Notes under the pieces: generated by a model
Database searches by the model: none
What the model was told of the DNA's origin: nothing
What the model saw: only the letters and a program-made list of their open reading frames with translations
Assembly (NCBI RefSeq): GCF_033472595.1
Contig: NZ_CP137642.1
Location: 310,001 to 374,000, forward strand
DNA length: 64,000 nucleotides
Source: Methanoculleus receptaculi
GTDB lineage: Archaea; Halobacteriota; Methanomicrobia; Methanomicrobiales; Methanoculleaceae
Reading direction: 5' to 3'
Position numbers and translations under genes: made by a program
Part shown: one piece after another, positions 3,691 through 19,040 of the stretch
How the letters are laid out: the number at the start of each line of letters is the position of its first letter
Numbering within the stretch: position 1 is the stretch's first letter

Positions 3691-3767
3691 TTACTCCAGC
3701 CTCCCATCCCCTGGCACCTGAATCACCTTCCCCGGGACGCCGGCATACGGCGTGTCGTTGCAGGTAG
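3135..3767 (+). pseudogene. istB: IS21-family helper ATPase IstB, 3' truncated
   Basis: IstB is the AAA+ helper that works with IstA in target capture. The N-terminal helical region, Walker A GNSGTGKTH near residue 102 and Walker B LLILDELGY near residue 165 are intact. Homology stops after AELLFQLL at about 3690. The last roughly 25 codons before the stop at 3767 are foreign and lie antisense to the neighbouring SMC-like gene, whose stop codon is at 3691. The sensor and C-terminal part of IstB is therefore lost. With istA also cut, this IS21 copy is dead. Translation was once coupled to istA (the stop and start overlap at 3135). Confidence 0.8.
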
Positions 3768-5931
3768 CGACGATGACCTGGCAATGGTTCGCAACCTCCT
3801 TAAGGATCCGGCAGAGGCGCCGCATCCGGATCGGGTCGGCGTTCACCAGCCGGTCATCGATGACGATGAGGTTGCGCTCGTCTTTGCTCAAGAGGACACC
3901 CATAGCAAGACGCAGGAGGACGATGATCTGTTCGTGGGTTCCATAACTCAGGCAATCCAGGGGCAACGTTGCGTCATACTGTGGATTTGACACTTCAACC
4001 GGGAAGATATTCTCATTCATCCCGACCGAATCGTATGATCCATCGGTGAGCTGTGTGAGCCAGCGGTTCACCAGGTTGGCCACCGGGCCGGAAAGCGCCG
4101 TGGACTGCTCTTCCTTGAATGCCTGCATCAACTCATACAGAAGTTTCGCGGCTTCGGCCTGCCGGGTGACCCGATCGAGGTTGCGCTTCGTGGCCTCGAG
4201 CGATGCTTCCAGGTCCCCGATCCTGGAGTAGAAGCCCTCGGAAACAGCCTCCTCGATCCGGGCTTTTCTATCCACGATCTCCTTCTCAACGGACTGCATC
4301 TGCGTTCCAAGATCCTGGACAACAGTCAGAGCATCCGCATACTGCGCCTTCGGCTCTTCGACCCGGATCTTATACTCAACAAGGATGGCTGCAAGACCCT
4401 CACGTGCCTGCTCAAGTGCTACGAGCTCGTTCGCAAGCGTCTCCTGCAGGCGCTCGTAGGTGCCGTACGACCTCAATAGATCGGCATTCTGCTGCTCGAA
4501 TCCTTTCACCTGTGTTCGAAGTTCGACCAGGTGAGTGGATGCTTTCTGCGCTTTATCGAGCGCCTTCTCATGAGCGTCGCGAGCCTCTTTCTCCCCCTGC
4601 TGTTCATGCTCAATCTTTCGATTGAGACCTTTTTTCTCCGCGGTAAGACCTTCAGACATATCTTGAATAGCATCATCTGAGAGTTGCTGCCATTCGGGAG
4701 GGGCAGCACCGATCTTGCTTTTCTCCTTAGTAATTTTCTGCTGAATCAGGGTAATGTCTTCTCTGTGCTGCTCAAGCCCTTTTTCGGAAGTGAGTTCTTT
4801 ACGCGTCTTCTTGAGCCGCTTGATCTCCTGCTCAAGCTCCTGGCGGAGCTGCTGGAGGCCATAAAGTTCCTGCTCATCTGTCACCCCAAAGCGTTCGAAG
4901 AGCGAATCACGTTCAGCAGATAGAGATTGTAAGTTTGTCTGCAGTTCTTCAAGCGAAGATCCACCGCCCCGCAGATGAATTGTTCCAAGGTCACCGACTG
5001 TGAATGTGGTCGGGCCGAGAACAAGATACTCATTTTCCTCGGCGAGGTATTCTGCATCCGGGTCTGCTGTTATCGATAGATTTTCGATCTGCAGATCGAA
5101 CCCGATACGGATGGCAGCCTGCTCAATCTGGCCGAGAAGAGTGGCCAGTTCCAGTTGTTGCTCCTGATACTTCTCCAGATCCTTCTTTGAGGGGAGGGGG
5201 GTTGTGGAGAGGACCTGTTTTTGCTCCCACAGGTCTTTTTCGGTGGTCTGGATACGCTCGATCTGCTCCTGAACACCCGCCATCTGCTCTTCGATCCGCC
5301 GGGTTCGCTCTATCGCCTGGAGGATATCAAGTTCCTTCTCCACCTGTTGTAACCGGGGGGCATGGGCATCTTTCCAGGATGCGTGATACTTCTCAGCCGC
5401 TATCTGCTCCATGCGTGATTCGGCCTGAAGTTCTTCGGCCTCACGCTGTGTCCCTGCAAGACGCGTATTTATCTCGTCGATCTGTGTGAGGCGGCGTTCT
5501 ATCGCCGTACGATCGTCCGCGATCTTCTTCCAGGCCGCTTCAGCCTGTTGAACAGTCTCTTCTTTCTGCCTCTTCTCCGCCTCCAGAGCGGCCCCCTCGG
5601 AGATCTTTTGCTTGAGGTCCTCAACCTCTGCGCGGGCGGTTTTGAGCGCTTTGGCTTTCAGCCGCTGCTGTTCGGCGAAACCTTCCAGTTCCAGGCGGTG
5701 CCCTTCCACACCTCAGTCACGCTCATAGAGAATCTGCAGTTCTGCTTCGATCCCCGGGATCACCTTCTGGAGTTGATCCGGCTGGCTTCCTGCCTTTATC
5801 TTGCCCTTTGGAGTGCAGAACGATCCATATTCAGCTTCAATTTCCTTGAGAATCCGGTCTTCGTCGGGCGATCTCGCGGCGGGGAGACCCCGGACCAGGA
5901 GACCGGCAGGGTCGTCTCGTTCCGGAAGCAC
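3691..5931 (-). pseudogene. SMC/Rad50-like coiled-coil ATPase, 5' truncated and with an internal stop
   Basis: Reading from about 5931 down, the frame gives a coiled-coil segment, then an in-frame TGA at 5713-5715, then 672 more residues to the TAA at 3691. The long body is glutamate/lysine/glutamine-rich heptad sequence. The C-terminal head carries a signature-like LSYGTHEQIIVLLRLAMG and a Walker B-like LIVIDDRLVNADP. This layout fits SMC/Rad50/YhaN-type ATPases that act on DNA. The N-terminal head with Walker A is absent: upstream of about 5880 the frame is no longer recognisable. Such ATPases are common in defence and repair islands, but this copy should not fold an ATPase. A GTG three bases after the stop could still start a headless protein. 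Confidence 0.7.
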
Positions 5932-6000: not shown

Positions 6001-6660
6001 TCACGCCGGCGGCCGCCCGCCCATCCGGTCCCCCAGATACCGGACATCACAGAGGCGGGTCTCCGAAAGAATGAGCTCCCGGTTGGCGACGATGTGGCGA
6101 TAATCCCCGGTATAGAGCACCGTGCCGTCGATCGCCGCGGCGACGTCGTGGGCGTCGAGGAGCACCTCGCAGTCGTCGTAGTCCTCGATGACCGCACTGA
6201 ACCGGTCCCAGATCTCGCGGTAAGGCTCCGTTCGTGCATGAAGCGCCAGCACCTTCCGGTCCTCGAGGGCGGAGCGCCGCCGCCGGCAGAGCGCTTCATA
6301 CCGCTCTTTCACCGCGAGAAGCGTCACCAGGGCCGCTGCCGGCTGCTCGCGACAGAGTTCGGCAACATGCCGGAGAAGCGGGACGGTCTTCCACCCCCGG
6401 CTCTCGGCCTCGGCGAGGAGGGTCTCCGCCGACCCGTCCCGCTTCAGGTGCGCAACCGCCCGCCGGAACTCGCGGACGAGATTCTGCTGGATGGTGTGGC
6501 ACCGCCCGCCCGTCCCGTCCCCGAAACACTCGGCCCAGACCCCTGTGCTGGAGTGGTTCGGCTCCGGGTCCTCAAAGACATCCGCGGCCCCGGTGCCCCA
6601 GGTGTCGGCGGCGTGAAAATAGTACCCGATGAGGACGTTGCTGTCGAGGAAATAGGGCAG
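6001..6660 (-). CDS. PIN-domain protein, likely ribonuclease toxin of a Panacea/PIN pair
   Basis: About 219 residues form a PIN-type nuclease. The start reads YFLDSNVLIGYY with the first conserved Asp, and the end reads DAHDVAAAIDGTVLYTGDYRHI, the usual late acidic PIN motif. The middle is helical. The long open frame upstream to 6861 is a shadow of the next gene. The likely start is a CTG at 6660-6658: GGGAGGAGG lies just before it, no ATG, GTG or TTG suits the domain boundary, and the stop of the upstream gene (6662) abuts it. PIN proteins cleave RNA in many toxin-antitoxin modules. Toxicity here is inferred from pairing with the Panacea gene. Confidence 0.7.
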   Translation of the reverse strand: MPYFLDSNVLIGYYFHAADTWGTGAADVFEDPEPNHSSTGVWAECFGDGTGGRCHTIQQNLVREFRRAVAHLKRDGSAETLLAEAESRGWKTVPLLRHVAELCREQPAAALVTLLAVKERYEALCRRRRSALEDRKVLALHARTEPYREIWDRFSAVIEDYDDCEVLLDAHDVAAAIDGTVLYTGDYRHIVANRELILSETRLCDVRYLGDRMGGRPPA

Positions 6661-6661
6661 G

Positions 6662-7687
6662 TTACCTCCTCCCTGCCGGAGACTCGCTGCACGCGAGATC
6701 GCGAGAGATGCGCATTGCCATATCGACAAGAGCCGAGACCTCGCCGTCGGAATCCGGGGGGAGCGAAGGCGGATTATCGCGGGTGATCGCGTCCCGCTCG
6801 GCGTTGAAGCGCCGCTCCGCGGTGTCGCAGAAATCCTGCAACTGCTCCTCCTGATACACAATCGGGATCATCTGCGTTGCGACGACGTGCGAGACGAAAC
6901 AGAGGGCATCGCAGCCTTCGGTCGCAAGTGCGGGGGCGTGCGAAGGGTTGTGGCGGAGCATCGAGCGGTAGGCGTCGTCCCATGCCAGGTACGCGTCATA
7001 GAAGATCTCCAGGGCGGGCAGGGGATACGCCGCGATGAAGCTGTCCAGGACCTCCTCGACGGTGGCAATCCGCTCCGCATTCAGCGGGTGGAGCGCGTTG
7101 CTAACCTCCGTAGAGAGAGGGAGGATGCCGGTGCAGAACGTGCGCTCGAAGCCGTCGGCGTGCAGGCCGCAACGCTCCAGGTACGCCAGCTCGCTTGAAT
7201 CCAACCGGAAGCGTTCAAGCGGGATCTCCTCACCGTCGGAAAACTCCTTCCAGAGGCGGAACTGGTGGGTTATATCGCTGATACGGTCTGCGCTTTTTTC
7301 CTTCATCCACTGGAGCACGGTCCAGAGAAGCACCCGCTCGTAGGGGGTAAAGAGCGAAAGATCCGCCTGAACTTTGGGGTAGTATGCGTAGGGTTCGTAA
7401 CTCCTGCTCCGGGAACGGCTGCCCGACGTCCGTCTGCCCGGATACGCCTTTGCTGTCGGTGCCTTCACGTCCAGGTAGGCGCTCGGCTCAAACGTCAACT
7501 GGAACGCCGCAGCCTCGGCAGGTCCCTTCGGCATGCGGATATAGGTCGTCCCGCAGAGTGTTGTTCCCCGCTGGTTGTAGTAGATGAGGTCCACAAAGAA
7601 GATGAACTTCAGGAGTTTCGTCCGGCCGATGCGGCCGTTGTGCTCCACCGCGTATAGCAACGCATTGATCAACTTCTGCTTCCGCAT
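6662..7687 (-). CDS. Panacea (DUF4065/SocA-like) domain protein, candidate antitoxin
   Basis: The 341-residue protein begins with a Panacea-type domain: TKLLKFIFFVDLIYYNQRG, then TTYIRMPKGP near residue 53. After a basic insert it closes with the hallmark ISDITHQFRLWKE near residue 140. The remaining roughly 190 residues form a helical domain I do not recognise. Panacea domains are known as versatile antitoxin modules that neutralise different partner toxins. The gene lies immediately upstream of a PIN-domain gene, and its last codons contain that gene's ribosome-binding site, so the two are translationally linked. It is intact, unlike most of its neighbours in the island. Antitoxin function is inferred. 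Confidence 0.75.
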   Translation of the reverse strand: MRKQKLINALLYAVEHNGRIGRTKLLKFIFFVDLIYYNQRGTTLCGTTYIRMPKGPAEAAAFQLTFEPSAYLDVKAPTAKAYPGRRTSGSRSRSRSYEPYAYYPKVQADLSLFTPYERVLLWTVLQWMKEKSADRISDITHQFRLWKEFSDGEEIPLERFRLDSSELAYLERCGLHADGFERTFCTGILPLSTEVSNALHPLNAERIATVEEVLDSFIAAYPLPALEIFYDAYLAWDDAYRSMLRHNPSHAPALATEGCDALCFVSHVVATQMIPIVYQEEQLQDFCDTAERRFNAERDAITRDNPPSLPPDSDGEVSALVDMAMRISRDLACSESPAGRR

Positions 7688-7691
7688 CCTA

Positions 7692-8285
7692 TCACCCTGA
7701 CCCTGAAGCTTCCGCTATAACCGGGGAAACAAGTCTGTATGTGTGCGTATTACAGGTAATAAAAGATAACCCTTTCTGAACGCAGGGATGAAGGCGCGAT
7801 TCACGACGGGCCGAAGGGTGCGAGTGCAGGTCGGCCAGGTCATCAAGGGCCAGGTATCTCCCCTCGCAGAGGCGGAGAATCGTTACCTCAACTGCCTTCC
7901 TCGACGCTTTCCGCATAGAACTGACAGGCCCTGCAATCTCGTGCAACGTATCCAAATGTTCGGATCTTGCGATCAAATGTTCGAAGCTTTCTGGCAAATG
8001 TTCGGAACTCCCCGGCAAATGTTCGGAGCTCGGCTTCGAACAGATCCCAGGAGCTCCGAACATTTCACCTTCCATCGGGTGGTGACCAGGACGGTAGTAG
8101 AACGTGCTCCTGCCCGACCCCTCGCTCATCAGAAGCCCTTTCTCGACCGGGCCGCCAAGAGCTACGGTGGTGTCGTGCGGGTGCTCTTTCGTCACCTCTT
8201 TGAGCTTGCTGCGGTTAACGCATCCTCCGGAAGGAGGTGACGACCCGCTCCTACGTGAGACGCTCACGCTCGCCGAGGTGCTCAT
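7692..8285 (-). pseudogene. C-terminal remnant of an AlbA/RecG-like ATP-binding regulator with EHL repeats
   Basis: The 197-residue frame opens with about 25 poor-quality residues. It then reads like the C-terminal winged-helix part of AlbA_2/RecG-like transcriptional regulators (KLKEVTKEHP, GLLMSEGSGRSTFYYRPG). Next come at least four Ser-Glu-His-Leu type units between about 8040 and 7940; their DNA repeats CAAATGTTCGGA. A last winged-helix-like segment follows (LRLCEGRYLALDDLADL). The N-terminal ATP-binding part is missing. Its ATG at 8285 overlaps the stop of the next remnant (ATGA). It may be expressed as a small protein, but it looks like debris. Confidence 0.5.
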
Positions 8286-18706: not shown

Positions 18707-18719
18707 AGAGATCGCCGCT

Positions 18720-19026
18720 GGGGACACGTCCTCGGTCGACCGTGCGCGCAAGCATTCACCGCTGCATCCCTTCTCCACCCCGCAACCCCATGGGCGCCGA
18801 ACGTCCGCGGTAAGTCTGCTCCCTTCCGGGCCTGGACCGGTGCCCGCGGCAAAAGGTCGCCGCCCCCTCCGGGGCTTTGATCCCTTTCCGCCGACCTCAT
18901 GGGACGAGGCTTCTACGTCGGGATACAGCGGATCCTGCAGGCCGCTGCGGCCTTCCTCGGACTTCGCCCCCCGCTTGACGGCGGTTTCGGGTAACAGGTG
19001 ACGCCGAGCCACCCGGGCTAGTCCCC
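18720..19026 (-). ncRNA. ffs: Signal recognition particle 7S RNA
   Basis: About 307 nucleotides on the minus strand. The SRP54-binding helix 8 is clear at 18838-18814: GGTCCAGGCCCGGAAGGGAG carries the GGAA tetraloop, followed by GCAGAC. The Alu-domain sequence GGCTCGGCGTCACCTGTTAC is near the 5' end, at about 19010-18990. The ends are set by pairing of 5' GGGGAC (19026-19021) with 3' GTCCCC (18725-18720), the archaeal helix 1. A TATA box lies 26 bases upstream. The RNA scaffolds SRP19 and SRP54 for co-translational membrane targeting. Exact ends are approximate. Confidence 0.93.
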
Positions 19027-19040
19027 GTAGGTAGTTGAGT

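Follow-up and report, generated by a model that had tools for sequence, protein, structure and literature searches.

A putative mobile Panacea–PIN toxin–antitoxin cassette in Methanoculleus receptaculi with a candidate PIN-specific C-terminal domain and an apparent CUG-started toxin gene

The PanAT toxin–antitoxin systems, built on the Panacea (DUF4065) domain, have been defined in two surveys (Kurata 2022, PMC8832971; Ernits 2023, PMC10440598). Their multidomain antitoxins neutralise toxins via added domains such as PAD1, ZBD and Phd-C, and Panacea has been suggested to be a sensor (PMC8832971, PMC10440598). The toxin–antitoxin field has yet to settle whether Panacea acts as sensor or as neutraliser. 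A PIN toxin paired with Panacea and the C-terminal domain (CTD) considered here are both absent from the main texts of PMC8832971 and PMC10440598, while the datasets may include them as an unlabelled cluster. The initial annotation of the present locus supposed that such a combination may be undescribed; this agrees with those main texts, but a Panacea antitoxin with an added domain is in itself an already known type.

The window, meaning the whole 64,000-nucleotide stretch analysed, is G000:C1:310001-374000 of the single-contig, 1.98 Mb genome of M. receptaculi. The G and L labels denote genomes and loci compared with it, and the relatives are Methanoculleus and other Methanomicrobiales. The window carries panA, which encodes the candidate antitoxin, followed by the gene of a PIN-fold toxin candidate (Table 1).

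Table 1. Features of the window cassette (window coordinates) and proteins with the alternative N-terminus (locus coordinates).
Feature	Position	Strand	Basis
Conserved leader/promoter block, moving with the cassette	7688..7780	-	aligned in 12 genus/family copies
panA, Panacea antitoxin candidate, 341 aa	6662..7687	-	intact frame, Pfam SocA_Panacea
Panacea domain, residues 25-147	7247..7615	-	Pfam match
Exchanged Panacea segment, residues 67-170	7178..7489	-	sliding identity, distance correlations, conflicting trees
Helical CTD, residues 172-341, candidate PIN-neutralising module	6665..7174	-	occurs with PIN under another N-terminal domain too
PIN gene ribosome-binding site GGAGGAGG in the last panA codons	6665..6673	-	sequence; kept in relatives
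PIN-fold toxin candidate, 219 codons, intact	6001..6660	-	structure model, acidic residues
CTG start codon of the PIN gene	6658..6660	-	NTG in 32/32 relatives
Catalytic Asp D6 codon	6643..6645	-	invariant, 18 diverse members
Catalytic Glu E44 codon	6529..6531	-	invariant, 18 diverse members
Catalytic Asp D169 codon	6154..6156	-	invariant, 18 diverse members
Catalytic Asp D186 codon	6103..6105	-	at least 90% conserved, 18 diverse members
Protein with alternative N-terminus	L079:4082-4993		
Protein with alternative N-terminus	L081:3952-4995		
Protein with alternative N-terminus	L082:3910-4992		
Protein with alternative N-terminus	L086:3678-4604		
Protein with alternative N-terminus	L105:548-1492		
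Protein with alternative N-terminus	L099:2118-3017	-	

The surroundings of panA are broken, as was noticed at the outset. They comprise a DDE transposase, a 3′-truncated IstB, an SMC-like ATPase with an internal stop and a RecG-like ORF, and the island is largely degraded. The SMC-like ATPase gene (3691-5931, minus strand) has its in-frame stop near 5710 and overlaps the IstB remnant. Purifying selection appears to act on both cassette frames, as initially proposed, with an omega of 0.19 for the Panacea protein and 0.165 for PIN between the window and its nearest relative. Against the relatives, the panA values range over 0.15-0.26, and those of PIN reach up to 0.4 in two comparisons. Elsewhere in the window, an archaeal signal recognition particle RNA lies at 18718-19028 on the minus strand (Rfam RF01857, 190.8 bits).

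The first protein is an intact Panacea protein as originally named, matching SocA_Panacea (PF13274) with an E-value of 6.5e-10 and 40.4 bits versus the curated Pfam cut-off of 25.7. Its unrecognised C-terminal domain, first put at 190 residues, spans about 170 (residues 172-341) and matches no Pfam family. No DNA-binding family in Pfam or NCBIfam was matched by PanA, and neither PanA nor PIN matches any NCBIfam model or any catalogued defence protein in PADLOC. Structurally, the PanA model is predicted with a pLDDT of 84, its CTD helices span 180-335, and the CTD bears the motif YDxYLxWDDxxR. The whole model found no usable match in the PDB by Foldseek, and a sequence-only search of solved-structure sequences returned helical noise alone. 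Panacea matches are present among viral models.

The second protein, initially called a PIN nuclease, matches no Pfam PIN model. Only 2 of 23 relatives touch Pfam PIN, at an E-value of 0.097 at best, and the remote relative L100 touches PIN_8 at 0.0025, all below the cut-off. A profile search of solved-structure sequences gave helical noise alone for this protein too, and the PIN identity is carried by the predicted structure (pLDDT 88). The best nine Foldseek matches of the model are VapC-type toxins, with poor E-values. VIA-align superimposes VapC/FitB toxins on its whole length with Z-scores of 9.4-11.5, those of VapC being 10-11.5, and an rmsd of about 3-4 over about 125 residues. The acidic residues are retained, numbered from the CTG codon: D6, E44 and D169 are invariant and D186 is nearly so among 18 diverse aligned members. 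The PIN assignment is supported by the model and the acidic residues, though not by Pfam.

Next after VapC/FitB come the RNase P-like (HARP/PRORP), Nob1 and exosome PIN proteins with Z-scores of 7-9.4, so PIN might instead have a housekeeping or processing role as an RNase, with PanA adapting or regulating it. We hold this to be very improbable, as toxins are the best structural matches, the distribution is patchy and mobile with decaying copies, and Panacea belongs to a toxin–antitoxin family (PMC8832971). A toxin remains the preferred identity of the PIN protein. A second, very distant PIN-profile match lies outside the window at G000:C1:949794-950228 on the plus strand (E 3e-6), covers profile positions 57-197 in a 278-codon frame, and is seen in G036, G049 and G112 too.

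The two genes keep company. In searches over 150 related genomes, panA and PIN adjoin in the same genomes, and the Panacea–PIN adjacency is conserved in about 25 genomes from several family groups of the order. Profile searches across 232 genomes of the order located CTD at 37 loci, and at 35 of these the next gene downstream is PIN or what is left of it, so the pairing suspected from the window alone is a conserved one. Neither outcome that the initial annotation named as refuting it, absence of co-occurrence elsewhere or loss of the PIN acidic residues, was seen. The other two loci, in G040 and G065, match CTD weakly. These two genomes encode Panacea proteins of about 325 aa whose CTD is very divergent and which lack a PIN neighbour (L167:1718-2695, minus strand, and L168), and a 259-aa ORF without a Pfam match lies near them.

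Conversely, where a strong PIN match has no CTD beside it, it is either a fragment missing D6 (G009, G011:C12, G127 and G017) or part of a divergent Panacea pair (G110 and G124). Such orphan pieces, lacking the predicted first catalytic Asp, are the remains to be expected of a toxin. Across 84,980 species genomes, PIN relatives turned up only in Methanomicrobiales-type archaea and one Methanothrix bin, and not in bacteria. Within the genus, the cassette is patchy and decayed copies exist. Searches for its viral, plasmid and phage homes ended without matches.

Eight divergent PIN genes (L058, L079, L081, L082, L086, L087, L099 and L105) are preceded by the gene of a roughly 300-aa protein with a CTD-like C-terminus. 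The C-terminal 150 aa or so of these partners align with the PanA CTD at an hhalign probability of 98.9% and an E-value of 3.7e-17, and the CTD motif is common to both. Between their N-terminal 135 aa or so and Panacea, homology was undetected by hhalign (probability 2.9% and 0.4%). This alternative N-terminal domain, KNPLLKYSVEALL...LPYCWYLHGPLIE, stands in place of Panacea and has no Pfam match. Its weak alignment with Panacea is colinear around a T-x3-K...GP pattern, and it is possibly a very divergent Panacea. Along the PIN tree, a single N-terminal swap suffices (p-AU 0.49).

Reciprocally, the nearest Panaceas of the order are about 42% identical and have other tails with no CTD and PemK/MazF genes next to them. 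At L027, L029, L030, L031 and L169, Panacea antitoxins of about 200 aa are directly followed by the MazF/PemK-like toxin genes.

Within the genus, sliding identity to the window copy is about 80-95% along most of the cassette; in Panacea residues 67-170, which occur as two allelic types, it drops to about 62-76% for one type. Within Methanoculleus, the CTD and PIN distances correlate with r=0.97, a value that the linkage of these two adjacent regions would raise by itself, while those of Panacea 67-170 and PIN correlate with r=0.22. The Panacea-segment tree splits the copies into two types with 100/100 support, and the CTD and PIN data reject this split (p-AU 0.012). The CTD and PIN grouping of the window with L063, L064 and L065, chosen for the test with the distances already in view, is rejected in turn by the Panacea segment (p-AU 2e-40).

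The evidence therefore points to CTD, rather than Panacea, as the constant and PIN-specific partner of the putative toxin, and to Panacea as an exchangeable part. That CTD stays with PIN while the front half of PanA swaps suggests which part restrains and which part senses. The initial annotation had cast Panacea as the neutraliser. Stand-alone Panacea does neutralise some toxins directly (PMC10440598) and is found in most genus copies, so Panacea could likewise neutralise PIN here with CTD as an accessory, for example in dimerisation or stability. This is rather unlikely, because eight PIN-relative loci keep CTD without a recognisable Panacea, the Panacea segment is exchanged with no matching change in PIN, and an unrelated toxin stands opposite the nearest Panaceas.

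Two altered copies bear on the same division of labour, one for it and one against it. In G025, Panacea is lost and the CTD and PIN ORFs remain, but at conserved positions this PIN carries Y13C and W21G (CTG-based numbering) and could be inactive, so that G025 counts for less as a natural experiment. In G029, panA stops about 35 residues short of its normal end and PIN is open, so either the last PanA helix may be dispensable or the copy may be dead. A short ORF upstream of the G025 CTD remnant (L071:1894-2283, plus strand) has a RAYYGAYRH stretch recalling HEPN-type proteins and no Pfam match.

The PIN frame opens at its CTG one base past the panA TAA, and a Shine–Dalgarno-like GGGAGGAGG, conserved in relatives, lies within the last panA codons, confirming the reported overlap of the panA end with the PIN ribosome-binding region. 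PIN position 1 is NTG in all 32 relatives checked, with 23 CTG, 7 TTG and 2 GTG, while CTG and TTG make only 29% of the Leu codons in the same PIN genes. The start lies 1-5 nt beyond the panA stop in most copies, and a distant relative in G420 appears to start with ATG.

Other ways of translating PIN were considered and rejected. Gene callers restricted to ATG, GTG and TTG stretch the frame up to TTG 6861, but this and other upstream starts are not conserved among relatives, and L079, L054 and L047 have none of these three codons in the open frame above the CTG/NTG. A frameshift fusion of panA and PIN disagrees with the spacing to the panA stop: taxa differ in it (1 nt in most, but 2 nt in L077 and G057), yet the NTG is kept, which argues for initiation there. 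An RNA hairpin over the ribosome-binding site has no support (z -0.76, with relatives scattered).

Hence, judging from sequence conservation, the toxin candidate starts at a conserved, mostly CUG codon over several archaeal families. This is very unusual: prokaryotes very rarely start genes with CUG, and only 2 switches to it were counted among 61,358 ancestral AUG starts (Belinky 2017, PMC5622118). Since its ribosome-binding site consists of the last panA codons, PIN translation would be coupled to that of panA, and we infer that the toxin is deliberately under-translated. Practically, gene callers limited to ATG, GTG and TTG will mis-start this gene.

Homology between the copies extends from about 93-95 bp ahead of panA to a little beyond PIN, and their flanks differ except for one shared site behind a DsbH-like gene. 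The cassette thus appears to move with its leader of about 93 bp. A type IIG restriction–methylation gene lies within about 3 kb of it in G005, G008, G012:C10, G016, G024 and G025, while genomes of the genus have about one strong type IIG-family hit each. Chance alone is unlikely to account for this adjacency, although some of the sites have a common ancestry. As an uncontrolled observation, Type I methylases are repeatedly found near the cassettes too. The window copy has the transposase, IstB, SMC-like and RecG-like remnants in place of type IIG genes.

A plain addiction module, persisting by post-segregational killing with no defence role, would also suit a cassette that moves with its own leader and occupies different sites, an intact pair inside a degraded island and orphan toxins existing only as catalytically dead pieces. 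We find it quite unlikely, as no plasmid or virus home was found in the searches, and the Panacea exchange and the type IIG neighbours fit sensing and defence better. The initial annotation took addiction for the cause of survival of the pair, but the patchy occurrence, the decayed copies and the type IIG neighbours fit defence at least equally. The two roles are not exclusive.

We consider it fairly probable that this is a compact, mobile type II toxin–antitoxin cassette of methanogenic archaea, probably directed against viruses, in which CTD neutralises and Panacea senses. From one leader, panA and then the CUG-started PIN gene would be expressed, and the weak start codon would keep PIN scarcer than PanA. 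The helical CTD would bind PIN and cover its acidic active site. A trigger such as a viral product might be sensed by the Panacea half and relayed to CTD, freeing PIN to cut cellular RNA and stop growth.

It is a more tentative thought, short of an even chance, that the cassette represents a new antitoxin architecture, in which an undescribed CTD as a dedicated PIN inhibitor, a recombining Panacea sensor and a CUG-initiated RNase toxin would together serve archaeal antiviral defence. In the natural swap, two Panacea segments occur with a CTD and PIN that are almost unchanged, and another N-terminal domain occurs with a related CTD and PIN. These alleles could separate sensing from neutralising.

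Among the known systems, the Panacea–MazF/PemK pairs (L027-L031, L169) share a colinear Panacea half of about 42% identity, but theirs has a short tail without CTD and a PemK-like toxin (Pfam about 2e-9). VapBC and FitAB share the toxin fold and the acidic active site, whereas the window PIN has about 85 extra helical residues between its second and third acidic residues, and its antitoxin is Panacea plus CTD instead of a small DNA-binding VapB/FitA protein. The PanAT systems are alike in the Panacea domain above the cut-off, the antitoxin-first two-gene locus and an extra antitoxin domain linked to a single type of toxin, comparable to PAD1, ZBD and Phd-C. The window system differs from them by its apparently CUG-started toxin and documented exchange of the Panacea segment.
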